Shown: piece after piece, positions 18,180-53,266 of the stretch
Layout: every line of letters begins with the position of its first letter
Position numbering within the stretch: position 1 is the first letter of the stretch
Source: Aphrocallistes beatrix
Taxonomy: Eukaryota > Porifera > Hexactinellida > Sceptrulophora > Aphrocallistidae
DNA length: 64,000 nt
Direction: 5' to 3'
Assembly: GCA_963281255.1 (NCBI GenBank)
Contig: OY725493.1
Location: 743,550-807,549, forward strand
The notes under the pieces: generated by a model
What the model saw: only the letters and a program-made list of their open reading frames with translations
Told to the model about the DNA's origin: nothing
Database searches by the model: none
Made by a program: the position numbers and the translations under genes

Positions 18180-19846
18180 ATGGGTGTGAAGTTAGCAGCA
18201 CGTTCAGCAGCGAAAAGTGAGCAGGGTATAATTAGTCCCAGTTTCACAGTGCCTAGTAGGATCTTGATCAAATTTGAAACAGAACATTATAAGCGAGGTA
18301 GCTTTGTGTCATTTTAATATCTAACGGCTACTGATTAAAACCACTTGACAATGACGATGCAAATTTGATGAAATTTCTATAGGATTTCAGTATAGCTCAA
18401 AGTGAGCAGGGTATAACTAGTTCTAGTTTCGCAGTGCCTTGTGGGATCTTGGTCAAATTTGAGACAGGACATTATGAGCGAGGTAGCTTTGTGTCATTTT
18501 AATATCTAACGACTACTGATTAAAACCACTTGACAATGACGATGCAAATTTGATGAAATTTCTATAGGATTTCAGTATAGCTCAAAGTGAGCAGGGTATA
18601 ACTAGTTCTAGTTTCGCAGTGCCTTGTGGGATCTTGGCCAAATTTGAGACAGGACATTATGAGCGAGGTAGCTTTGTGTCATTTTAATATCTAACGGCTA
18701 CTGATTAAAACCACTTGACAATGACGATGCAAATTTGATGAAATTTCTATAGGATTTCAGTATAGCTCAAAGTGAGCAGGGTCTAACTAGTTCTAGTTTC
18801 GCAGTGCCTTGTGGGATCTTGGCCAAATTTGAGACAGGACATTATGAGCGAGGTAGCTTTGTGTCATTTTAATATCTAACGGCTACTGATTAAAACCACT
18901 TGACAATGACGATGCAAATTTGATGAAATTTCTATAGGATTTCAGTATAGCGCAAAGTGAGCAGGGTATAACTAGTTCTAGTTTCGCAGTGCCTTGTGGG
19001 ATCTTGGCCAAATTTGAGACAGGACATTATGAGCGAGGTAGCTTTGTGTCATTTTAATATCTAACGGCTACTGATTAAAACCACTTGACAATGACGATGC
19101 AAATTTGATGAAATTTCTATAGGATTTCAGTATAGCTCAAAGTGAGCAGGGTATAACTAGTTCTAGTTTCGCAGTGCCTTGTGGGATCTTGGCCAAATTT
19201 GAGACAGGACATTATGAGCGAGGTAGCTTTGTGTCATTTTAATATCTAACACCTCCCGATTAAAACCACTTGGCAATGACGATGCAAATTTGATGAAATT
19301 TCTATAGGATTTCAGTATAGCTCAAAGTGAGCAGGGTATAACTAGTTCTAGTTTCGCAGTGCCTTGTGGGATCTTGGTCAAATTTGAGACAGGACATTAT
19401 GAGCGAGGTAGCTTTGTGTCATTTTAATACCTAACACTTCCTGATTAAAACCACATGACAATGACGGTGCAAATTTGATGATATTTCTATAGGATTTCAG
19501 TATAGCTCAAAAGTGAGCAGGGTATAACTAGTTCTAGTTTCGCAGTGCCTTGTGGGATCTTGGTCAAATTTGAGACAGGACATTATGAGCGAGGTAGCTT
19601 TGTGTCATTTTAATACCTAACACCTCCTGATTAAAACCACATGACAATGACGGTGCAAATTTGATGATATTTCTATAGGATTTCAGTATAGCTCAAAAGT
19701 GAGCAGGGTATAACTAGTTCTAGTTTCGCAGTGCCTTGTGGGATCTTGGTCAAATTTGAGACAGGACATTATGAGCGAGGTAGCTTTGTGTCATTTTAAT
19801 ATCTAACACCTCCCGATTAAAACCACATGACAATGACGATGCAAAA
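18180..19846 (+). repeat. Left inverted arm: nine 185-bp tandem units
   Basis: The agtgagcagg word recurs at 18216, 18401, 18586, 18771, 18956, 19141, 19326, 19512 and 19698, a period of 185-186 bp. Each unit contains ctagttctagtttcgcagtg and aggtagctttgtgtcatttt. Inner units are nearly identical. The outermost one, next to the transposon end, is more diverged and instead matches the outermost unit of the other arm. Confidence 0.95.
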
Positions 19847-20036
19847 ATTGGACATTTCTATTTAACTCACTATAGTTAGTTTGCAATGTGAAATTATTGA
19901 ATTGATTACTGACTAACAATATAACACATTTAGATGATTCTATAGCTTCTAATTTCACAATTCGCTATCCTAATGTATGTCAAGGCTAATCCTTGTACAT
20001 GTAAATATCGTTAACTAACATTTTCATCCTAAATGA

Positions 20037-23000
20037 TCAAATTAGTTTGGTTTGTGATCCAATTTGTATGCTTCCAACTTCTTTCACCTGTATTACCGGT
20101 TGAAAATGATCTCTAAACAATCTCAGGTAAATCCTAGTCTCTGTCAGGTTATGAGAAGAATGTTTATCATTGAACCCATACCCTGAAAATTTCATCCAAC
20201 ATTTGCTTTCATCTTTGTAGACAAAAATGTCAGTACCTAGGATCTGTGCTGCTAAGAATATTTCTAAGTCAGTACCCCAAGATCCTAATCGGTCCATCAA
20301 GCTTATTTTGAGATATTCTTCTATTGTGTTGCAACGCGCTTCGGGTAGCAAATCATTTCGAGCTTTACAATACTTGGAGCATGTTTCTCTATATTCTCCT
20401 TTCATTTTTTGTATTAAGAGCCCTCTTATTTGTTGGTGGTAGCTATCTGTCCCTGCAATTACGTAAGAGAGTGATCTAAATAGGCAATTGCCATCTGGTG
20501 AGATTCTTTTCTCTCTAGAAGGTATTAGCTGTCGAATTTCCAGGGATTTTTCAATAGCTTCGTTCTTATACAAAACACCCTTTGTATACGTCATTTGCAG
20601 AAATTTGCATTTTTCTTTCTGCCAGCTTTGTGTTACTGGCTTGAAATTTCCGTGATAAAAGAATGTAATCCCTTCAACGGAGATAGGTTCGTCATCAAGG
20701 CTATCATCATAATGCATTGCTCCACTTTTTCCGATTGGTTTAAGTTCAGCTGAAGGATTGCGATCACTTGTAGATAGGCATTCAGAACAAGGAGGGATGA
20801 CAGGGATTCGATTGGATAGTGGTTGAGAAGTTGAAACCTTTCCAGGTTCAAAATAACTTCGCTTCTTTTTTTTTTTCGCCCAAATTTCTTCTATTTGATC
20901 ATCGCTTCTGAATTTTATTTTTCTTCTTTTTATAATTTTATCACTTAATGGTTCGAATGCAAACCGAAATGCTCTGATTCTACCGACAATGCCTTCGCGT
21001 ATTTTACGAATAAAATCTCCCGGCCTTAGTTTGGATTCGTTTTGTAATATTGTAATTTTGACAATTCTCATCCAGTTCTCAGCGACCGCATTTGTAAATG
21101 TAATTCTTGCACTATTTGGAAATAAATTCGGACCTAATATGATTCCTGACCAGAGGGAACATATGGGCATGTAATGTGTTACTAAGAATGTGGGTAGACT
21201 CGGTAGAAAGTGTATGTTTTCCTTGCAATGGTCGGTCCGTTTTTTCTTCTCTAATTCAGTAATAAATTGTGTGCATTTGTTTAGTTCGCTCTGAAAATAG
21301 ATACCAAATGGTGATCTTGTTTTATAGGTATTGCTATCTCCCAAATTATTGTCTAGTTCTTCATCAAGGTCTTCCAAATATTCCAGATCAATATTATATT
21401 CGTCATTACTTAGGCTAATGGCATTGTCAAGCTTATGAAAAAAATCCTCAATTTCTGGGTAATACTTTTTAGCTAGACTTGTGATACATAATGCAACAAA
21501 AAGTTGCTTCAGTTCGTCTAACGCTGTACAGCTAACAAATCGTGCCATTATAAACATGACTTTTCTTTTTCGTAGTTGATCGATTCTAAATTTACGGCTG
21601 AGTTTGTAGCTTAAGCGGTTCATGATGTGTGCTGAACATATGTGAATGATCGTTTTCGGGGGTTTGGTCGATTTTGGAGTATGAATAACTTGCCAAGATG
21701 TAGCCAGATAATCTTCTAGAGTTTGTTTATTGAAACTATTGCAAACGCTGTGCAACATTGCCCAGCTATAATCAACTTCTACTTGACTTGGTGTAACTTC
21801 ACTGTTTGTAACTTTCTTGACATCATATAGCCACTGCTTAAGAAAATGTGATATTTCCACATTTGTTTGTTTGCTTGATATCATTTCTGCAAGTGGAATT
21901 GGGCTTACACGGGATTCAGGATGTTGAACAGATAGCGCATAGTAGAGTATTCTATCTTGAGACTTCTCTAACTTTCTAACGACCGAGCCAGTTGCATCAA
22001 GATGAAATGTCAAACTTTTCTTCTCCAAGTATTTCAATAAAGAGATTTGTTCTTCGCTATACAAGTGAATTACGAATGGAGTATGGGATATTGTTTGAAT
22101 ATAACCATTCATTTTGTCACCTATGATAGTGCTTTTAAAAGATAGTTGGGTACTGACTATGTCTTGCCACATGTCATTGTTAAACCTGGATTTTGACATG
22201 TGTTGGGATTTTACTTTTCTGAGTACATCAGTTGAATGCAAAGAATTAAAGTTACCATGTTTCGCAGCAGTAAAAATGTCAGGTTTAGTGAACAGAGAAT
22301 AATGGAAATTTGAAACACTTCTATTCTCGAGTTGTTCAGATATAGTTTCCCTTCTCTCGCCTGCTAAATGACGGCTTTGTGATACATGATTCGCGAAATG
22401 ATCTTTTGAAATTGATCCAGTGACAAAATATGTAATTACGAAAACATTATTTGCATTCGTTTCAGGTTCTTCCATTATAAACTTGAACTTAAAACAATCG
22501 CTAAATTTGCAAATTGCGGCAGCTACAAGAAAAGAGCATTTATTGCTATTTGTACTATTCTTATTAATCCTATGATATAAGAACTTTAGTACACAAAATG
22601 GATATTTCATTGACATCTTTTCATTCAATATGTTTGTCCATTCTGGTTCTAATTTGTTCTTAATTTCCAAAAACTTTGAGATTATTAACCATTCATGCAT
22701 TGTTAAATGAATTTCGCCTTGTTCAATCTCATGGGTTGCATCATTCCTATTTGATAAGATTGCATCATCACGAAAATTATTTTCTGCTAATGGCGAACTT
22801 GGACACGATATACTTACAAAATCTGAAGAAATTTCACACGGTAGATCAGAAAATTTAATACTTATAGGTAAGGATGTAGTGATAAAATTTGTTTGAACCT
22901 GTGATTGAATGTTGTATCTGTTGTTGCGCCATATATTCATAAGCTTTGCTCGTAGTTCTAGACGATTTCGACCATATACCATCTTTGCGAGCTTTCCCCA

Positions 23001-23231
23001 GAAACCAAACGGATTACGCCAATTTCTAGTCAGGCTAAGATTTTCCAGTACAGTGAATTCACACAATTCAAATTTCGATAAAGCATTTAGTATCTTCGAC
23101 GGTAGATTCTGACAAATGATAAATTTGTTATCATCATCTTCTAAAATTAAAAAAAAAGAATTTTAAAATCTATTTAGCTATGATGGAAATCCTAAGAATA
23201 AAAACTGACCATTCGAGTAATCTGCAGACAT
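20037..23231 (-). CDS. MULE-like transposase fused to an OTU cysteine protease
   Basis: Two exons: 23210-23231 (22 nt, MSADYSN) and 20037-23140, joined across a 69-bp intron (GTCAGT ... ttttttttaattttag), give 1041 residues with no stop. The central part has HLDATG (Asp about 389), EVDYSW (Asp about 464) and a CSAH motif (about 509-512). This order of acidic residues then C-x-x-H suggests a Mutator-type DDE transposase; I did not fix the final Glu. The C-terminus has SPDGNCLFRSL (Cys about 893), WGTDLEIFLAA and RDHF (His about 1019), which are the catalytic Cys box and His of OTU deubiquitinases. A basic KKKKKR run at about 770 may be a nuclear signal. Without the tiny first exon the long frame has no good ATG. 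Confidence 0.82.
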
Positions 23232-23764
23232 CAAATGAACCAAATCGATTTGTTGACAGTGAATTGTATAAGTATCAAATTTTATTGATTTTAGATAGTT
23301 TTATCATTTAAATATGACTATATTTTGGAAATATGCTATTTTCATTTGAAACCATATTACATTTATTTTCGCATTGGCTAATCATAAGTGATATCAATTA
23401 ATTAGTTATATTATATTAGTACATATTCATCATCATCCGCGGAAAACTAAGTTTTGGTTTCACTGGATGTTAATCTCAGCTCTGTGGTGAATTCATAAAT
23501 TTGTTGGACAATAATCATAAACAGGTTTGACCAAGACTCGAAATCATCGCATTAAACTGTATGGATTCCAGGTTTCCTCTGCACATTGAAATTCCAGAAG
23601 ATCGGAAGCACTATTAGTAATTTGTAGAATTTAATATCATGAATTAACACTTATATTATACTCGTATGTATTCAATTCTAATGACGTCATGACCCAACGG
23701 TTGGTCATGGTCACATTTGGCTTTGAAATATCAGGTGACTGTTGTCGCAATATTTTTCAATAGA
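23232..23764. other. 5' non-coding part of the foldback transposon
   Basis: This AT-rich sequence lies between the transposase start and the right arm, where its promoter would be expected. No coding exon or obvious TATA box at a fixed distance was identified. Confidence 0.4.
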
Positions 23765-24840
23765 GAGGTGTTAGATATTAAAATGACACAAAGCTACCTC
23801 ACTCATAATGTCTTGTCTCAAATTTGGCCAAGATCCTACAAGGTACTGCGAAACTAGAACTAGTTATACCCTGCTCACTTTGAGCTATACTGAAATCCTA
23901 TAGAAATTTCATCAAATTTGCATCGTCATTGTCAAGTGGTTTTAATCAGGAGGTGTTAGATATTAAAATGACACAAAGCTACCTCGCTCATAATGTTCTA
24001 TTTCAAATTTGATCAAGATCCCACAAGGTACTGTGAAACTAGAACTAGTTATACCCTGCTCACTTTGAGCTATACTGAAATCTTATAGAAATTTCATCAA
24101 ATTTGCATCGTCATTGTCAAGTGGTTTTAATCAGTAGCCGTTAGATATTAAAATGACACAAAGCTACCTCGCTCATAATGTCCTGTCTCAAATTTGACCA
24201 AGATCCTACAAGGCACTGCGAAACTAGAACTAGTTATACCCTGCTCACTTTGAGCTATACTGAAATCCTATAGAAATTTCATCAAATTTGCATCGTCATT
24301 GTCAAGTGGTTTTAATCGGGAGGTGTTAGATATTAAAATGACACAAAGCTACCTCGCTCATAATGTCCTGTCTCAAATTTGGCCAAGATCCTACAAGGTA
24401 CTGCGAAACTAGAACTAGTTATACCCTGCTCACTTTGAGCTATACTGAAATCCTATAGAAATTTCATCAAATTTGCATCGTCATTGCCAAGTGGTTTTAA
24501 TCGGGAGGTGTTAGATATTAAAATGACACAAAGCTACCTCGCTCATAATGTCCTGTCTCAAATTTGGCCAAGATCCTACAAGGTACTGCGAAACTAGAAC
24601 TAGTTATACCCTGCTCACTTTGCGCTATACTGAAATCCTATAGAAATTTCATCAAATTTGCATCGTCATTGTCAAGTGGTTTTAATCAGTAGCCGTTAGA
24701 TATTAAAATAACACAAAGCTACCTCGCTTATAATGTTCTGTTTCAAATTTGATCAAGATCCTACAAGGCACTGTGAAACTGGGACTAATTATATCTTGCT
24801 CACTTTTCGCTGCTGAACGTGCTGCTAACTTCACACCCAT
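23765..24840 (-). repeat. Right inverted arm: six 185-bp tandem units
   Basis: The ctgctcact word recurs at 23871, 24056, 24241, 24426, 24611 and 24796 (ttgct in the last), exactly 185 bp apart, in reverse orientation to the left arm. The arms differ in length by three units. Confidence 0.95.
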
Positions 24841-42936: not shown

Positions 42937-45285
42937 TTAAGCCTGCACTTTCTCCACTAAACAGTCAACAATCTTTGAAGCGAACTCCTCTGCATAATCA
43001 ATCTCCAGTTCTTGATTCCACTCCTGTTTAGCTCTCATCTCCCTCTCCATCTGTTCATCTGACACCATTCGAATGTCCATGTTAACTCTCACCTCTGAAA
43101 TGCTAGCGTTATCATGTGCGAATAGTTTCAACAATCTGTAATCGTAATCCAAGTCTGCTTGAAGTCTGATGCATTTCCTCGCGATCATTTTCCCGCTCTT
43201 CTTCTCCTTCACGATTAGGTGCAGTTTGCTATCATTGACTTGGTTGAGCGGGATATAGACAGAGTCGTGGATGGCTCTCACTCGTGGATTGGAAGTGTTT
43301 CCCTTTTCTTGCATTAAGTACGGTGCTTGATCGGTGCTCGTCATCAACAGTACTTCTATATTTTCATTGAAACATTCCTGAGTGACGAATGCGATGTCAG
43401 CGATACCTACTGCCAGTTTATCTTTCTCCTCTGCTCGTGCGTATGACCTCCATCCCATCTTGATCATGGTGTGAAGTGGTCCGATGAGTGTCTGCAGGTA
43501 CTCGTAGATGAGGGACAAGGTCGTGACGGCTATGGGCTTTGGTTGTGAGAAGAAATGAAGAGTCTGTTTGATCCGTTTTTCTATCTCGTTGATGGTTATC
43601 GGTGTCTGTTTGAGATGGAGTGATTGGAACTGTGACATTTCGAGTGCTGCATTCGATAAGAGTTCCACTCCGTTTTGAACAACCTCGTTTTCAAAGAAAT
43701 CGATGACGTCATTTTCAGTGTTGAGCACATACACAATCTGTTGTTGTTGTGATGTTTTGTTGATGATGGAAAGAATTGTGATGTAAGCAGGGATGTACTG
43801 ACGCTCAGATTCGAGAGTGTATGTTGAGATCCCAGAAGACACGAGGAACATCTGATCTCCATCTCCAGCGTAGTATTCATTCATCCCTGTTCCATTCGGT
43901 TCCAGCATGACGTCATAGAGCACATCATATTCAGGAGGTAGTTCATCTGAACTTTCAGAAATGTTCTCTACTGAGATGGGAGTTAATCCTCCACCATTCA
44001 CGTATCCAGATAAGTTCGTATCTTGGTCGTATAAGCTCTTGATCCTTCTTGAAGCCATGGTTGGCATTAAATTAATGAAAGCATTCGAATCGATGACTGC
44101 AAAGGATGTTGTTTCTGTATTGGTTTGATCGTAGACCACAAATGGATGGTATTTGTTGAATCTGAATTGTAGGTTGTTGATTGTGTAGAGATGATCTCGA
44201 TTCCTTTTGATGGTTAAAACGAGTGCAACTTCTCTCGGCCCATTCGGAGTATCAACCATTTCACCCTTCTTGATTACAGAAATATCTTTTAATTCTTTAT
44301 TCGCTAACATAATTTTTGTTTGATAAGAAAAACAGCTACTCTTTTTGCTTTTTTTTACAAATTCCTCCGACTTGGCTTTAAGGTCTGCTATTTCTCTATC
44401 TTTTTCCTCCTGGATCTTTCGGAGTTGAGCTTCCAATTCTTTGTGTTTTTTGTGTGCTTCTTCTATTTCTTTCTTATCGCTTAGATGTTGCTCTTTCAAT
44501 TGCATAGCTATCTTCTCCATTCCTTGCTGATTCTCTTTTGCTCTTGCAAGTTGTCTGAAAAACCTTGCTCCATGATTCATTATTGAATTGCTGTATCTGA
44601 CATTTCCAGTGTCTTCACGGATCTGATCAATAATACTGAATATCTGAGTACATTTTTCTTCTCTATACGGAACATTCTGGAATTTCTTTTTGCTGTCAAC
44701 ACAGATGTAACGCCTGTTCGTATTTTCAAGCCATTCTTTTAGGACTGGGGGACAATCCTTTTCCGCACTAACCGTTTCGATATATTCATTGCCGTTGTTT
44801 ACTTTGAATTCTTTCATTACTTTTGATTCTCTGGTGAAAACGAGGAATGCATGTTTCCATAAGTCACCTCCTAAATATTCAAGCTGAGCGAGTGCATTTC
44901 GATGGTTGTCACTAAATCTTTCCAAAGAACTAACAACTATTGCCACAGCATCAGTTCCATCTTTAGCCATCACGCCTACTTTGCAAATTTCATCCTGAAT
45001 ATCCTCAGCAGGACGCTTAGAGTCACAGAATCCTGGACAGTCAATAAGCAGGACATCTTCGTTGTTGAAATTGAACTTGCAAGCTCCTACTACCTGTGTT
45101 TTAGACTTGAAACCAAAGGCTTCTTCGAATATTTTATCATTTGCTAAGAAGTTACCAAATGTGCTCTTTCCTGCACCAGTAATTCCCACCATAAATATGG
45201 ACCTCTTATAGCCAGTGAATTCTTTGAAATTATCATAAAATTCTATATTACTGTCACTCATAATACCAGGATTCTTTTGAGCCAT
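42937..45285 (-). CDS. AIG1/GIMAP-like GTPase fused to a Hint domain, gene 1
   Basis: A single exon encodes 782 residues. I start at MAQKN because gene 3 has the matching MAEKN; five extra codons lie upstream. The GTPase has a P-loop GITGAGKST (34-42), DCPGFCDS (82-89) and LERFSDNHRNAL plus FLVFTRE further on, as in AIG1/IMAP proteins. A charged coiled coil covers about 245-315. A Hint domain begins SSCFSYQTKIMLAN (Cys 318), with KGEMVDTPNG and KYHPFVV (His 380); Cys-Phe at the start and the block-B His are the autoprocessing residues of Hedgehog and inteins. The usual Thr of TxxH is Asn, and no terminal His-Asn is seen, so N-terminal cleavage without splicing is the likely chemistry. The last 285 or so residues match nothing I know. 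No signal peptide is seen, suggesting a cytosolic protein. Confidence 0.85.
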   Translation of the reverse strand: MAQKNPGIMSDSNIEFYDNFKEFTGYKRSIFMVGITGAGKSTFGNFLANDKIFEEAFGFKSKTQVVGACKFNFNNEDVLLIDCPGFCDSKRPAEDIQDEICKVGVMAKDGTDAVAIVVSSLERFSDNHRNALAQLEYLGGDLWKHAFLVFTRESKVMKEFKVNNGNEYIETVSAEKDCPPVLKEWLENTNRRYICVDSKKKFQNVPYREEKCTQIFSIIDQIREDTGNVRYSNSIMNHGARFFRQLARAKENQQGMEKIAMQLKEQHLSDKKEIEEAHKKHKELEAQLRKIQEEKDREIADLKAKSEEFVKKSKKSSCFSYQTKIMLANKELKDISVIKKGEMVDTPNGPREVALVLTIKRNRDHLYTINNLQFRFNKYHPFVVYDQTNTETTSFAVIDSNAFINLMPTMASRRIKSLYDQDTNLSGYVNGGGLTPISVENISESSDELPPEYDVLYDVMLEPNGTGMNEYYAGDGDQMFLVSSGISTYTLESERQYIPAYITILSIINKTSQQQQIVYVLNTENDVIDFFENEVVQNGVELLSNAALEMSQFQSLHLKQTPITINEIEKRIKQTLHFFSQPKPIAVTTLSLIYEYLQTLIGPLHTMIKMGWRSYARAEEKDKLAVGIADIAFVTQECFNENIEVLLMTSTDQAPYLMQEKGNTSNPRVRAIHDSVYIPLNQVNDSKLHLIVKEKKSGKMIARKCIRLQADLDYDYRLLKLFAHDNASISEVRVNMDIRMVSDEQMEREMRAKQEWNQELEIDYAEEFASKIVDCLVEKVQA

Positions 45286-46140
45286 TTTAATCTCTTTCAT
45301 TTCCTTACTTTACTTAAGTCTATTTATACATTTATAAAGTCTTGGAATATACTCTCACGAACTGCTTAAATTTAGAATATGTTCTTAAATATTGTAATTA
45401 CCATTATTTGATTCCTCAACATAGTACCTCAAACTTTCTACTATAGATACTTGTTGTTGTAAATATACTTTCCATAAACATCATGATGTAGATTGTTTAG
45501 CCTCTTTTACCATTAATGACATAAGATTGTGATGATGGCAAACAAGATTAATACTAGTTGTTTTCAGGGTTGAAGCTACAGTTCTCCTTGAGGAGGTAGT
45601 AGGTGCAGCTTCAGTTTGACAACCTTAGTTTTGACCTCAAAAAGACATGTGATAAGTAATAGAATGCAATAACAGGATGTTTATTGAGGTCATTTATCTG
45701 GGATTACTTGTATTTGATAGTTCTGATTACAAACAATTGCGCATACGGAAAAATATCTCTATACACTTACAGTTGTCCCAGGCGGAAGGATAGTTATTTA
45801 TGTTTAAGATTTTTAGTTAGTAATACTTGTAGTTTCATTTTACCGTTAAACAACAATTAAGTCACCTTTCATAAGCGCTACGGCAGTGGTACTAACTTGT
45901 TCATAGTTGAAATCTAGCCTCTAGCAACCAATGAGACCAAAAACAATCAAGGACTATATTGATACAAAAACAGGTAATGTTCCATATTAAGATATCATAT
46001 ACACAACCATTCTAGTCTCTACAGACTAACTCCTACAAGCTAGAACTTATGAACTAACAGAGTCCTAATGACTAAACCTAACTACAGTCTCTAATAGACC
46101 GTCTACTGTACTGAGACTAAACAAGGAAGACAGGACAGAG
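45286..46140. other. Intergenic between AIG1-Hint genes 1 and 2
   Basis: It holds the upstream region of gene 1 and the 3' flank of gene 2, which repeats the gagactaaacaaggaagaca trailer. No other gene. Confidence 0.5.
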
Positions 46141-48531
46141 TTAAGCCTGCACTTTCTTCACTAAACAGTCAACAATCTTTGAAGCGAGCTCCTCTGCATA
46201 ATCAATCTCCAGTTCTTGATTCCACTCCTGTTTAGCTCTCATCTCCCTCTCCATCTGTTCATCTGACACCATTCGAATGTCCATGTTAACTCTCACCTCT
46301 GAGATGCTAGCGTTATCATGTGCGAATAGTTTCAACAATCTGTAATCGTAATCCAAGTCTGCTTGAAGTCTGATGCATTTCCTCGCGATCATTTTCCCGC
46401 TCTTCTTCTCCTTCACGATTAGGTGCAGTTTGCTATCATTGACTTGGTTGAGCGGGATATAGACAGAGTCGTGGATGGGTCTCACTCGTGGATTGGAAGT
46501 GTTTCCCTTTTCTTGCATTAAGTACGGTGCTTGATCGGTGCTCGTCATCAACAGTACTTCTATGGTTTCATTGAAACATTCCTGAGTGATGAATGCGATG
46601 TCAGCGATACCTACTGCCAGTTTATCTTTCTCCTCTGCTCGTGCGTATGACCTCCATCCCCTCTTGATCATGGTGTGAAGTGGTCCGATGAGTGTCTGCA
46701 GGTACTCGTAGATGAGGGACAAGGTCGTGACGGCTATGGGCTTTGGTTGTGAGAAGAAATGAAGAGTCTGTTTGATCCGTTTTTCTATCTCGTTGATGGT
46801 TATCGGTGTCTGTTTGAGATGGAGTGATTGGAACTGTGACATTTCGAGTGCTGCATTCGATAAGAGTTCCACTCCGTTTTGAACAACCTCGTTTTCGAAG
46901 AAATTGATGACGTCATTTTCAGTGTTGAGCACATACACAATCTGTTGTTGTTGTGATGTTTTGTTGATGATGGAAAGAATTGTGATGTAAGCAGGGATGT
47001 ACTGACGCTCAGATTCGAGAGTGTATGTTGAGATCTCAGAAGAGACGAGGAACATCTGATCTCCATCTCCAGCGTAGTATTCATTCATCCCTGTTCCATT
47101 CGGTTCCAGTATGACGTCATAGAGCACATCATATTCAGGAGGTAGTTCATCTGAACTTTCAGAAATGTTCTCTACTGAGATGGGAGTTAATCCTCCACCA
47201 TTCACGTATCCAGATAAGTTCGTATCTTGGTCGTATAAGCTCTTGATCCTTCTTGAAGCCATGGTTGGCATGAAATCAATGAAGGCATTCGTGTCGATGA
47301 CTGCAAAGGATGTTGTTTCTGTATTGGTTTGATCGTAGACCACAAATGGATGGTACTTGTTGAATCTGAATTGTAGGTTGTTGATTGTGTAGAGATGATC
47401 TCGATACCTTTTGATGGTTGAAACGAGAGCTACCTCTCTCGGACCATTCGGAGTATCGACCATTTCACCTTTCTTGATTTGAGAAATATCTTTTAATTTT
47501 TTATTCGCTAACAGAATCTTTGTTTGGTGAGAAAAACAACTACTACTTTCTGTGGCTATTTTTTCTGCTTTATCTTTCAAATCTGCTATTTCCTTTTCCT
47601 TTTCTTCCTTTAAAATTGCCATCTCTTTCTCTAATTCTTTTTGTTTCTTGATGGCCTCTTTAATTGCTTTCTTATCTTCCAAATTTTGCTGTTCCATTAA
47701 TTTCCTAAATTCTTTTGCCGCATTTTCCGCTTGTTTTACTTTCGCAATTTGTCTCCATAGTTTAGCCCCTTGGTTCATCATCATATTTGTGTATTTGACA
47801 TTCCCTGTGTCTATACGTATCTGATCAATAATCCTAAATATTTCTCTACATTTCTCTACTCTATACTTCTCATTGTTAAAATGTCTTTTACAATCGACAC
47901 AAACATGACGTTCCCTTGTATTCTTCATCCATTCCGTTAGAACGGGTGGGCAATTTGGATTCCTTCTTACCATTTCAATATAATCAGCCCCACTTTTCAC
48001 TTTATAATCTTCGATTATTTGTGCCTCTCTAGTGAATACGAGAAAAGCGTGATCCCACAATGCACCACCCAAAGCGTTCAGTTGTTCTAAAACGTTGCGA
48101 TGATTGTCACTGAATCGCTCTATAGAGTTAACAACTATCGCCACAGCGTCAGTTCCATCTTTAGCCATCACACCGACTTTACATATTTCCTCTTGGATCT
48201 CCTCAGTGGGGCGCTTAGAATCACAAAATCCCGGACTATCTATGATGAGGACTTCTTCGTTTTTAAATTGAAATTGATGGGCTTGTGTAATGACCGTTTT
48301 GGAAATCATTCCGAAACCTTCGCTAAAGAAGAGATTATTTGCCAAAAAGTTTCCGAATGAACTTTTTCCAGAACCTGTGATTCCAACCATCAGTATAGAT
48401 CGATCATACCCACTGTATACTTGGGGATTATCATAAAACTCTGCTTCACTTCTGCTCAATTCAGTATGTATCCCTCTGATGCAATATCCCCCTATCCCTT
48501 GTAACAAATATCCTTTACCTTTGAAGTACAA
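46141..48531 (-). CDS. AIG1/GIMAP-like GTPase fused to a Hint domain, gene 2
   Basis: A single exon encodes 796 residues. Its N-terminal extension (MYFKGKGYLLQG) differs from genes 1 and 3; the GTPase core starts near residue 33. The P-loop is GITGSGKSS (50-58), the G3 motif DSPGFCDS (98-105), with IERFSDNHRN and FLVFTRE following. The coiled coil at about 265-328 is Lys/Glu-rich and differs strongly from its neighbours. The Hint domain starts SSCFSHQTKILLAN with Cys 332 and keeps KYHPFVV. From there to the stop the protein is nearly identical to gene 3, though its GTPase head is clearly the most diverged of the three. It shares most private Hint variants with gene 3 (VIDTNAFIDF, YDVILEP, SSEIST). 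Confidence 0.85.
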   Translation of the reverse strand: MYFKGKGYLLQGIGGYCIRGIHTELSRSEAEFYDNPQVYSGYDRSILMVGITGSGKSSFGNFLANNLFFSEGFGMISKTVITQAHQFQFKNEEVLIIDSPGFCDSKRPTEEIQEEICKVGVMAKDGTDAVAIVVNSIERFSDNHRNVLEQLNALGGALWDHAFLVFTREAQIIEDYKVKSGADYIEMVRRNPNCPPVLTEWMKNTRERHVCVDCKRHFNNEKYRVEKCREIFRIIDQIRIDTGNVKYTNMMMNQGAKLWRQIAKVKQAENAAKEFRKLMEQQNLEDKKAIKEAIKKQKELEKEMAILKEEKEKEIADLKDKAEKIATESSSCFSHQTKILLANKKLKDISQIKKGEMVDTPNGPREVALVSTIKRYRDHLYTINNLQFRFNKYHPFVVYDQTNTETTSFAVIDTNAFIDFMPTMASRRIKSLYDQDTNLSGYVNGGGLTPISVENISESSDELPPEYDVLYDVILEPNGTGMNEYYAGDGDQMFLVSSEISTYTLESERQYIPAYITILSIINKTSQQQQIVYVLNTENDVINFFENEVVQNGVELLSNAALEMSQFQSLHLKQTPITINEIEKRIKQTLHFFSQPKPIAVTTLSLIYEYLQTLIGPLHTMIKRGWRSYARAEEKDKLAVGIADIAFITQECFNETIEVLLMTSTDQAPYLMQEKGNTSNPRVRPIHDSVYIPLNQVNDSKLHLIVKEKKSGKMIARKCIRLQADLDYDYRLLKLFAHDNASISEVRVNMDIRMVSDEQMEREMRAKQEWNQELEIDYAEELASKIVDCLVKKVQA

Positions 48532-49492
48532 TGGTGATTTCTATTTTCTTAAATTATCGTTTCTATTTTTCTATTTTCTTAAATTATCGCAATTTGATTG
48601 TAAATGCAGGATCCAAATGATTTGTTATTTGATGGGATTGATTAAATAGATCTCCACAGCTCTCAAAGTTATGCATAATTATTTAATTTGTAAATACTTG
48701 ATATAATGTTACCTGATCTTCTACATAATCTGACCAAATTTTCCTAATTCAAAACAAACATTTTATGCCGATAAGAATGTACATTTTAATGGAGATTTGA
48801 TATTAAATGAAAATTCTGATTCATTAAAATTTCAAAATACTTACATTTGACTACAATTGACCATAATCAGTGGTGTACTGTAACTGTTTTGATTGGTGAT
48901 GTACCGTCATGTCTCATTGATGCAGGTTACTACCGATTTTCCCAAAGTCTAATTTTTAATTGATCGATTTACTTTCCGAGAGAATCTGGGTTTACTGATC
49001 ACAGTGAAGGGAAAGATATTTTACTCCGCGAAGAAATCTTTCTAAAATATGCAGAAATATGATATGAAAACTATTGAAATGGCTTGGAACTGCGCCTGGG
49101 GAATTACATTCATCTTTTTGCCAAAAACACCATTTGGTACTCAAAATTATTGTTCAATGTGATTTCACAACTGATTTTTAAGTAATACTAGAAAAGTGTA
49201 AGGTCGAAAAAAAGAATGCCCTAATGAAGTGGCATGTGATATACGATATACTTATTTTGGATCTAGATATTAATGCTAAATATTAGGTAGTAGGATATGG
49301 CTGAAGTTCTACAAAGATAGTAAATGTATTATACACACTACAAGTTCTAACACTATTGTATCAGCCTCAAACAGAGTAGCTACTAGCAAGCTAGAACTAA
49401 TGAACTAACAGAATCCTAATGACCTAAACCTAACTACAGTCTCTAATAGACTGTCTACTGTACTGAGACTAAACAAGGAGGACAGGACAGAG
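48532..49492. other. Intergenic between AIG1-Hint genes 2 and 3
   Basis: AT-rich; a short direct repeat ttctattttcttaaattatcg at 48540-48590. The 3' flank of gene 3 (49380-49492) matches those of genes 1 and 2. No gene. Confidence 0.5.
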
Positions 49493-51844
49493 TTAAGCCT
49501 GCACTTTCTCCACTAAACAGTCAACAATCTTTGAAGCGAACTCCTCTGCATAATCAATCTCCAGTTCTTGATTCCACTCCTGTTTAGCTCTCATCTCCCT
49601 CTCCATCTGTTCATCTGACACCATTCGAATGTCCATGTTAACTCTCACCTCTGAAATGCTAGCGTTATCATGTGCGAATAGTTTCAACAATCTGTAATCG
49701 TAATCCAAGTCTGCTTGAAGTCTGATGCATTTCCTCGCGATCATTTTCCCGCTCTTCTTCTCCTTCACGATTAGGTGCAGTTTGCTATCATTGACTTGGT
49801 TGAGCGGGATATAGACAGAGTCGTGGATGGGTCTCACTCGTGGATTGGAAGTGTTTCCCTTTTCTTGCATTAAGTACGGTGCTTGATCGGTGCTCGTCAT
49901 CAATAGTACTTCTATGTTTTCATTGAAACATTCCTGAGTGACGAATGCGATGTCAGCGATACCTACTGCCAGTTTGTCTTTCTCCTCTGCTCGTGCGTAT
50001 GACCTCCATCCCATCTTGATCATGGTGTGAAGTGGTCCGATGAGTGTCTGCAGGTACTCGTAGATGAGGGACAAGGTCGTGACGGCTATGGGCTTTGGTT
50101 GTGAGAAGAAATGAAGAGTCTGTTTGATCCGTTTTTCTATCTCGTTGATGGTTATCGGTGTCTGTTTAAGATGGAGTGATTGGAACTGTGACATTTCGAG
50201 TGCTGCATTCGATAAGAGTTCCACTCCATTTTGAACAACCTCGTTTTCAAAGAAATTGATGACGTCATTTTCAGTGTTGAGCACATATACAATCTGTTGT
50301 TGTTGTGATGTTTTGTTGATGATGGAAAGAATTGTGATGTAAGCAGGAATGTACTGACGCTCAGATTCGAGAGTGTATGTTGAGATCTCAGAAGAGACGA
50401 GGAACATCTGATCTCCATCTCCAGCGTAGTATTCATTCATCCCTGTTCCATTCGGTTCCAGTATGACGTCATAGAGCACATCATATTCAGGAGGTAGTTC
50501 ATCTGAACTTTCAGAAATGTTCTCTACTGAGATGGGAGTCAATCCTCCACCATTCACGTATCCAGATAAGTTCGTATCTTGGTCGTATAAGCTCTTGATC
50601 CTTCTTGAAGCCATGGTTGGCATGAAATCAATGAAGGCATTCGTGTCGATGACTGCAAAGGATGTTGTTTCTGTATTGGTTTGATCGTAGACCACAAATG
50701 GATGGTACTTGTTGAATCTGAATTGTAGGTTGTTGATTGTGTAGAGATGATCTCGATACCTTTTGATGGTTGAAACGAGTGCAACCTCTCTCGGACCATT
50801 CGGAGTATCGACCATTTCACCTTTCTTGATTTGAGAAATATCTTTTAATTCATTATTCGCTAAAAGGATCTTTGTTTGGTGAGAAAAGCAACTACTACTT
50901 CCACCACCACTGCTTTGAACATAGGTAACCGATCGAGCTCTCAATTCTGCTATTTCTCTATCTTTTTCTAGCTGAATCTTTTGGAGTCGAATTTCTAATT
51001 CTCTGTGTTGTTTCTGTGCTTCTTCTATTGCCTTCTTATCGCTTAGATGTTGCTCTTTCAATTGCATAGCTAACTTCTCCATTCCTTGCTGTGTCTCTTT
51101 TGCTCTAGCAATTTGTCTGAAAAACTTTGCTCCTTGATTCATCATTGAATTGCTGTATCTGACATTTCCAGTGTTTTTACGGATCTGATCAATGATACTG
51201 AATATCTGGGAACATTTATCTTCTCTATACGGAACATTCTGGAATTTCTTTTTGCTGTCAACACAGATGTAACGCCTGTTCGTATTTTTAAGCCATTCTC
51301 TTAGAACTGGGGGGCAATCCTTACTCATACTAACCATCTCGATATATTCATTACCGTTGTTTACTCCGAATTCTTTCATTACTTTTGATTCTCTGGTGAA
51401 AACGAGGAATGCATGCTCCCATAAGTCACCTCCTAAATATTCAAGCTGATTGAGAGCATTTCGGTGATTGTCACTGAATCTTTCCATTGAACTAACAACT
51501 ATCGCCACAGCATCAGTTCCATCTTTAGCCATCACGCCTACTTTGCAAATTTCATCCTGAATATCTTCAGCAGGACGCTTAGAGTCACAGAATCCTGGAC
51601 AGTCAACAATCAGGACATCTTCATTGTTGAAGTTGAACTTGCAAGCTCCTGCCACCTGTGTTTTAGACACCAAACCAAAACCCTCTTCGAATATTTTTGC
51701 ATTTGCTAAGAAATTGCAAAATGTGCTCTTTCCTGCACCAGTAATTCCCACCGTAAATATGGACCTTTTATAGCCGGTGAATTCTGTGAAATTATCATAA
51801 AATTTTCTAGCACTCTCACTCATACTGGAATTCTTTTCAGCCAT
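49493..51844 (-). CDS. AIG1/GIMAP-like GTPase fused to a Hint domain, gene 3
   Basis: A single exon encodes 783 residues from MAEKNSSM (seven more codons upstream are possible). The P-loop is GITGAGKST (33-41), followed by Cys-Asn where the others have Gly-Asn. DCPGFCDS, MERFSDNHRNAL and FLVFTRE follow. The GTPase head is close to gene 1. The coiled coil ends in a Gly/Ser-rich linker (SSGGGSSSCF) just before the Hint Cys (319). The Hint and C-terminal parts are close to gene 2. The C-terminal end is acidic then amphipathic (EIDYAEEFASKIVDCLVEKV), as in gene 1. The mixed affinities suggest gene conversion. It is the first of the three in transcription order. Confidence 0.85.
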   Translation of the reverse strand: MAEKNSSMSESARKFYDNFTEFTGYKRSIFTVGITGAGKSTFCNFLANAKIFEEGFGLVSKTQVAGACKFNFNNEDVLIVDCPGFCDSKRPAEDIQDEICKVGVMAKDGTDAVAIVVSSMERFSDNHRNALNQLEYLGGDLWEHAFLVFTRESKVMKEFGVNNGNEYIEMVSMSKDCPPVLREWLKNTNRRYICVDSKKKFQNVPYREDKCSQIFSIIDQIRKNTGNVRYSNSMMNQGAKFFRQIARAKETQQGMEKLAMQLKEQHLSDKKAIEEAQKQHRELEIRLQKIQLEKDREIAELRARSVTYVQSSGGGSSSCFSHQTKILLANNELKDISQIKKGEMVDTPNGPREVALVSTIKRYRDHLYTINNLQFRFNKYHPFVVYDQTNTETTSFAVIDTNAFIDFMPTMASRRIKSLYDQDTNLSGYVNGGGLTPISVENISESSDELPPEYDVLYDVILEPNGTGMNEYYAGDGDQMFLVSSEISTYTLESERQYIPAYITILSIINKTSQQQQIVYVLNTENDVINFFENEVVQNGVELLSNAALEMSQFQSLHLKQTPITINEIEKRIKQTLHFFSQPKPIAVTTLSLIYEYLQTLIGPLHTMIKMGWRSYARAEEKDKLAVGIADIAFVTQECFNENIEVLLMTSTDQAPYLMQEKGNTSNPRVRPIHDSVYIPLNQVNDSKLHLIVKEKKSGKMIARKCIRLQADLDYDYRLLKLFAHDNASISEVRVNMDIRMVSDEQMEREMRAKQEWNQELEIDYAEEFASKIVDCLVEKVQA

Positions 51845-53266
51845 TTTGTTTATTAGTATCCTCAATGTTACTGATTATATTTGTGACTATTTATATTTCT
51901 GGAGATAGGTAGTAAGTACCACTCACGGTAGAGTTGATAAAACCCGTGATAATCTACAGATATGCTATATGTGACATTAAATATGATACCTTTACTCTTT
52001 CCATTAACATCATCTTAACGTATTTCCGTTAGCATCTTAACGTAGTTGTGTTTGTACCTTCTTTGCTACTAATATGACATCATATTAGATTTTGCGACTA
52101 CGATGAGTTAATTAAGAATTCTATGGAATTATGAAATAACATCATCATCTCCCAACTTCATTCCATGCATGATCTAGTCTGTTAGCCTGGTGTCTGTTTA
52201 GTTTGCATTCGAATTAATCAACGAAAAGTAAATCGAATAAATGTAAAGATTTGTGAGTGGTCGTCCTATGTTCTATGAATAGAATCATTATAGACAAATA
52301 GTGAAATACATCAGGAAAAGAATTTAAGGGAATTTTAACGCTCAGAAAGTATCCATCAAGAGATATGTACATGTGTCCTATTTCGAACCTAAATTAGTTT
52401 TGTTAGGCTCGAGAGTTTGTTGACACTAGAGACACATGCGCTGCATCTACCATACTGATAGCTCTTGCTAATGCTACGTGCTTGAGATACATTATTTCTA
52501 AATTACTCTTGCACAGACTTGGGAGGAGTCATTATCAATTTGAGGAGTGAACTAGGTTAGGAGGAGCTCGATCCCACACCACATTCCTAGAGTTGGCGCC
52601 TATATCCATGGTGATTCTATATCACCGGTACCATTATCGACCAATCTTGTGTCCTATCTAACATTCCAATTTTCATTGAATGAATTAATACGTATTTTCA
52701 AGAATCCTTAGCTAAGTGAATGCTAGATCTGTCACGAAATAACTTTCCCTGAGGGACACTTTGGGGAGCAAGCTACTGATCTTTGTTTAGTTATAGTATC
52801 CGTTAATATTACAGTAGAACTCGGTTAGTACGTACCCCTCCGGGAAGCGGAAAAAAGTACGTACTATCCGTAAGTACGTACTAACCGAGTTGATATTACA
52901 TAGGAATCTATATAATAAATGAATTTTGGTTCAGAAAAATGAGTACATACTAAGCCGAAGTACGTCTTATACCGAGTACGTACTAACCGAGTTCTACTGT
53001 ATTTTCATTTCTGAAACTAAATTCTCTAATTCGTTTTCTCACCGGTAGAACCATGGAACTTTAGTGCCCTACCACACTTTTTTTCATAGGCGTAGAAACA
53101 TATTCTGACCATGGGGTGGGTGAGTATGTAGATAGGATTTTTATGGGGGCGTTTTAATGGAGCCCAGAGGACTTTGCCCCTGGAAGTTGACAACATTTGA
53201 ACACGCATCAACCAATCATTCACTCAAGTACAATTATATATTTCTATAAATAGCAACTAAGGTAGC
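51845..53266. other. Divergent region between AIG1-Hint gene 3 and RPL4
   Basis: Apart from the pogo-like MITE at 52812-52999 I see no gene. Both promoters must lie here. A ttctataaatag stretch just before the RPL4 start may be a splice acceptor for a 5' untranslated exon. Confidence 0.45.
52810..53001. mobile_element. pogo-like MITE, TA-flanked
   Basis: It begins CAGTAGAACTCGGTTAGTAC and ends GTACTAACCGAGTTCTACTG (52812-52999, 188 bp), with TA on both sides. It is largely self-complementary around repeated gtacgtac motifs. Confidence 0.88.

Follow-up and report, generated by a model that had tools for sequence, protein, structure and literature searches.

The window analysed here, a stretch of 64,000 nucleotides from the glass sponge Aphrocallistes beatrix (contig OY725493.1; source genome assembly of 100.5 Mb), carries three open reading frames arranged in tandem on its minus strand. 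These are g1 (42937..45300, 787 codons), g2 (46141..48531, 796 codons) and g3 (49493..51865, 790 codons), where the first ATG lies at 51844; they correspond to the tandem triplet of minus-strand genes that the initial annotation had placed at 42937..51844. No in-frame ATG was found in the g2 open frame ahead of MVGITG. Each gene consists of a single uninterrupted frame, with zero stops between the AIG1 and Hint parts and a spacing of ~80 residues from AIG1 to the Hint start, in agreement with the earlier description of the genes as intronless, as judged from frames and not from transcripts. All three were scanned with Pfam profiles, and g1 was also subjected to structure modelling and fold search. 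The order of parts is the same in each gene: an AIG1 GTPase, a long helix, a Vint-like Hint domain, a helical region and a domain predicted to be C2-like.

Other features were observed around the locus. Several look-alike sugar-transporter-type gene copies occupy 935-38140 of the window on both strands; two were scanned and both matched PF00083. At 18214-24806, a 1009-aa frame that ends in an OTU protease domain lies between two 185-base repeat arrays, judged by eye to run in opposite directions, and the segment resembles a mobile element. Immediately to the right of the window (locus L024, 2384-6257), an SNTX-type MACPF frame adjoins a Thioredoxin_11-fn3-AIG1 frame.

The AIG1 GTPase domain is encoded at 44575..45204 in g1, at 47770..48402 in g2, where it is divergent, and at 51134..51763 in g3. 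The AIG1 profile (PF04548) was matched in 3/3 genes with E values of 1e-26 to 5e-26 and 92-94 bits (93.1 in g2 and 91.8 in g3) against a curated cut-off of 27, confirming the type of GTPase first assigned from the sequence. Among solved chains, human GIMAPs come closest. In comparisons with g1 and g3, the AIG1 domain of g2 reaches a dS of about 3 or saturation, and g2 lies on a long branch of the GTPase tree, in which 4/14 inner branches are well supported. Following the GTPase, residues 253-312 of g1 (P0001 numbering; 44350..44529, minus strand) were modelled as a single long helix with pLDDT of about 50-75, so that the coiled coil proposed for this region agrees, at moderate confidence, with a helix called from the model.

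The Hint domain lies at 43834..44334 in g1 (Cys1 codon 44332-44334; C-terminal limit by eye), at 47038..47538 in g2 and at 50390..50890 in g3, all on the minus strand. It was matched by the Vint profile (PF14623) in 3/3 genes, with E values of 1e-8 to 4e-8 and 34-35 bits (35.2, 34.1 and 33.8, respectively) against a cut-off of 27, the match spanning only the first 65 of the 166 profile positions in each gene; the C-terminal part of the domain went without recognition by Pfam profiles. Both CFSxQTK, with the Cys, and NKYHPF, with the block-B His, are present in the window genes, and hhalign aligned these two residues (blocks A and B) with their counterparts in true Vint domains of the source genome (probability 83-85%, 65-66 columns). 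Two Vint loci of that genome (L022 and L023) have VWA-type fronts, VWA having been scanned in L022 only. The Hint start with its Cys and block-B His, as initially read, is thus borne out, and the Pfam search proposed at the time as a check placed both AIG1 and Vint over their curated cut-offs in all three genes. The description of the domain as Hedgehog/intein-like stands in part: the Hint start with conserved catalytic-type residues is there, but the profile is that of Vint and not of the Hedgehog-type Hint, PF01079, which was not listed for g1, g2 or g3 at E up to 1, and a Hedgehog-type Hint in these genes found no backing in the profile search. Among the eight members of the wider set A2, Vint was matched in seven (the one without it appears to be L021, entered without its block A), Hom_end_hint in 5/8 and PF01079 in 1/8, the latter two under cut-off where shown. 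The PI-SceI intein was matched weakly by a profile (E 0.0088), over the first 55 positions only.

Ten long rows, comprising the three window genes, two Oopsacas proteins and five ENA records, and 56-91% identical to P0001, were compared residue by residue. C318, N377, H380 and D458 (P0001 numbering) are invariant in 10/10, the Asp being that of the LYD stretch, which we take by eye to be block F. In the usual Hint domain block B reads TxxH, and an intein ends in a terminal His-Asn followed by Cys, Ser or Thr. Block B is NxxH in all ten rows, with Asn where Thr is usual, and the terminal His-Asn is absent from all ten near the expected end of the Hint, which was placed by eye. A classical intein was ruled out on the missing His-Asn, and protein splicing or Asn cyclisation is not expected because both the terminal His-Asn and the following nucleophile are missing; thioester formation at Cys1 is possible from the residues present. 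The Asn in block B and the lack of His-Asn would also suit a catalytically dead Hint, a structural joint between GTPase and C2 that leaves the protein an uncut, membrane-tethered GIMAP, and two relatives on contig C13 of the source genome, both of which have Gln at the block-B His position, show that this residue can be lost in Hint copies of the family. A dead domain is at odds with the invariance of Cys1, His and Asp across 10/10 rows despite Hint identity down to 59-66% (g1 or g3 against the seven rows from elsewhere), and we regard it as a serious but less probable reading.

Structural models were of limited reach over this domain. The full-length model had a mean pLDDT of 46, with about 20-50 over most of the Hint, and the Hint-plus-tail model a mean of 47.6 (73-79 at residues 11-40 and about 25-55 elsewhere); the fold-search matches listed were GTPases and C2 domains with no Hint structure among them, the models being poor over most of the Hint.

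Roughly 140 residues with no domain assignment separate the Hint from the C2-like domain, which is encoded on the minus strand at 43054..43431 in g1, 46258..46635 in g2 and 49610..49987 in g3; from this domain to the end, g2 is 97% and g3 99% identical to g1. Fold search with the predicted model indicated a C2 beta-sandwich of about 125 residues close to the C-terminus of g1. Pfam listed no C2 match up to E 1, and inspection by eye of the third loop of the C2 showed no clear Asp cluster of the kind found in Ca2+-binding acidic loops. The initial annotation had proposed that the GTPase could be released from a C-terminal part; that part is present, but its C2-like domain had been missed, and the piece to be parted from the GTPase would be Hint-C2.

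A search with the 469-residue tail among 6868 candidates returned 10 proteins, the Oopsacas and ENA tails being 59-65% identical, and the Hint-plus-tail profile among 7304 candidates returned 11 (three from the window, one from Oopsacas and seven from ENA). The full-length search recovered the ten long proteins compared above, plus one pike GIMAP; it scored the 7992 candidates sharing most words, a range that stops short of the distant AIG1-Hint proteins of other animals. Among 160 pattern matches in viral contigs, zero relatives were found. Elsewhere, the named family members belong to the glass sponge Oopsacas minuta, the others being ENA records or the window itself. Chance or artefact was ruled out, with two curated profiles over cut-off in three genes and the fusion present also in Oopsacas and other records. 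The same fusion with diverged tails in Oopsacas and ENA points to an old origin of the AIG1-Hint-C2 arrangement.

Within the source genome, the tail was found in the three window genes and twice on contig C13 (L020, 2081-4107, and L021, 1580-4541), there with 32-34% identity over the first 196 residues. These two loci have a different N-terminal part with no Pfam assignment and without AIG1; in the rows seen, the block-B His appears to be kept where the GTPase is present. A Hint-less copy of the AIG1-helix part (L025, 6863-7726, contig C15) has an open frame ending before the Hint, and its DNA is 83-85% identical to g1 and g3 (dN 0.10 and dS 0.61 against g3). Its open frame has been retained, so the tail may be dispensable to the head.

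Comparison of the window genes at the DNA level revealed an abrupt recombination boundary where the Hint begins, with heads that diverge and tails that stay alike. Identity in the N-terminal part and in the Hint plus tail is 66% and 97.6% between g1 and g2, 88% and 97.5% between g1 and g3, and 65% and 98.5% between g2 and g3, while dS between g1 and g2 is 3.0 in the AIG1 core and 0.05 in the Hint plus tail. The break is located no more than a few tens of bases from the Cys codon; tail similarity stops about 110 bases past the stop codon, and none is clear upstream of the genes. In the tail tree, 6/9 inner branches are well supported. Most likely, the genes have a tail module in common whose copies gene conversion or recombination keeps similar, and the GTPase heads meanwhile diverge. 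The near-identity of the tails in DNA and the sharp break could instead reflect youth only, recent recombination having joined a tail with no selected role to the GTPases; this is improbable, since Oopsacas and ENA records show this fusion with tails far less alike over the 469 residues, and dN between the window tails (0.006-0.017) lies under dS (0.049-0.073). The two Oopsacas copies are 88% identical in the Hint, 80% in the GTPase stretch compared and 76% in the C2 part, and the homogenisation pattern is weak there because the C2 part is not more alike than the GTPase.

We favour a reading in which the protein cleaves itself at Cys1 and the GTPase is released from a membrane-docked Hint-C2 piece; its chance of being right is about even, ahead of both a dead Hint and the transfer of a lipid. 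Release of this kind fits the anatomy of the protein, for which we infer the cleavage chemistry, the membrane binding and an immune role. The window proteins would be intracellular immunity-type (GIMAP/AIG1) GTPases made as a precursor of GTPase, helical stalk, Hint and C2, and the C2, going by its fold, would hold the precursor at the membrane. GIMAP GTPases assemble on nucleotide loading, and the GTPase and stalk would do the same. The Hint would convert the Ser-Cys bond before Cys1 into a thioester with the help of the block-B His and block-F Asp, and water or a small thiol or amine would then break the thioester, with the GTPase-stalk leaving the membrane-bound Hint-C2.

Hedgehog proteins carry a sterol-recognition region C-terminal to the Hint, and the C2 occupies that position in the window genes. 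A Hedgehog-like transfer may therefore be envisaged, in which a membrane lipid presented by the C2 attacks the Hint thioester and the GTPase becomes lipid-linked inside the cell, and the many Hedgehog-type Hint frames of the source genome, some with a GTPase in front, lend it some weight. We consider it unlikely, as nothing homologous to the C-terminal region of Hedgehog was detected and PF01079 was missing from the window genes and matched in a single member of A2. Slightly less likely still is that the Hint-C2 tail acts as an intracellular, membrane-docked lipid-conjugating machine, the C2 replacing the sterol-recognition region and an immune GTPase being covalently fixed to the membrane it senses; if so, glass sponges would use Hint processing for immunity twice, here and in GTPase-MACPF-Hog type proteins.

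Such Hedgehog-type frames were surveyed in the source genome, where PF01079 gave 25 matches, 19 of them over 100 bits and in frames of 403-1448 aa. Eight frames were scanned (L026-L033, contigs C7, C16, C12 and C4): Hint was over cut-off in 8/8, MACPF in 6/8 (16.9 and 19.7 bits against 21.5 in the other two) and the P-loop GTPase MMR_HSR1 in 2/8, being under cut-off or not listed in the others. Among 14 long Hedgehog-type Hint frames, a P-loop pattern occurs in 10, a hand-made MACPF-like pattern in 9 and a narrow block-B pattern in 5. For one Hedgehog-type frame, the alignment to Drosophila Hedgehog (E 1.9e-9) reaches almost as far as the processing domain's end. No publication on MACPF with Hint was found among the open-access literature matches listed; the lancelet pangenome paper mentions MAC/perforin, not tied to HINT in the passages available (PMC12373286). 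The novelty of the GTPase-MACPF-Hog set may exceed that of the AIG1-Hint-C2 genes.

The initial statement that no system of this architecture had been described did not hold, since AIG1 with a C-terminal Hint has been published for a coral, a snail, lancelets, a few fungi and the GmGIN1 protein. In the coral Acropora millepora, AIG1-like proteins carry a C-terminal Hint from which the authors infer splicing; this Hint is of the Hedgehog type (PF01079), unlike the Vint-like one of the window genes, and C2 is not mentioned in the available part of that text (PMC3723955). Biomphalaria has an AIG1 protein with a C-terminal hint/hedgehog domain among the unusual architectures of the family, again with no C2 mentioned in the portion available, in contrast to the Vint-like Hint and C2 of the window genes (PMC7053062). 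Lancelets and a few fungi have AIG1 with a C-terminal HINT and a lineage-specific expansion, but the recurrent lancelet form is CARD+AIG1+HINT, with CARD N-terminal and no C2 mentioned in the sections available, whereas the window genes carry a C2-like domain (PMC12373286). In the fungal GmGIN1, an AIG1/IMAP-like GTPase is followed by a Hint-type domain and a signal peptide is absent, as in the window genes; its Hint, which contains motifs J and K, is described as a bona fide Hog domain, as against the Vint-like domain here, and the same source, as far as available, expects processing inside the cell for VWA-Vwaint-Vint proteins, whose Hint start, with motifs A and B, is of the Vint type like that of the window genes (PMC2362128). 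Those proteins have VWA and Vwaint in front and a full Vint C-terminal part, whereas the window genes have AIG1 in front. In the glass sponge Aphrocallistes vastus, an AIG1 expansion includes a tandem block in which 38 of 50 genes are single-exon, but a Hint domain is not mentioned in the part of the paper available (PMC10282587), and a term search through the body of the Oopsacas genome article gave no occurrence of AIG1, GIMAP or Hint (PMC10280926). No publication on an AIG1-Hint-C2 architecture was found among the open-access papers listed; for the three domains together the listing gave one paper, on Entamoeba. AIG1-Hint fusions have thus been noted in several animals and fungi, with no cleavage test reported in the passages available, and the invariant catalytic-type residues, the Hint-less natural copy and the Gln-substituted relatives described here provide ready controls on Hint processing of cytosolic immune GTPases. 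The AIG1-Hint fusion as such was already known; the version with a Vint-like Hint and a C2 tail looks new.
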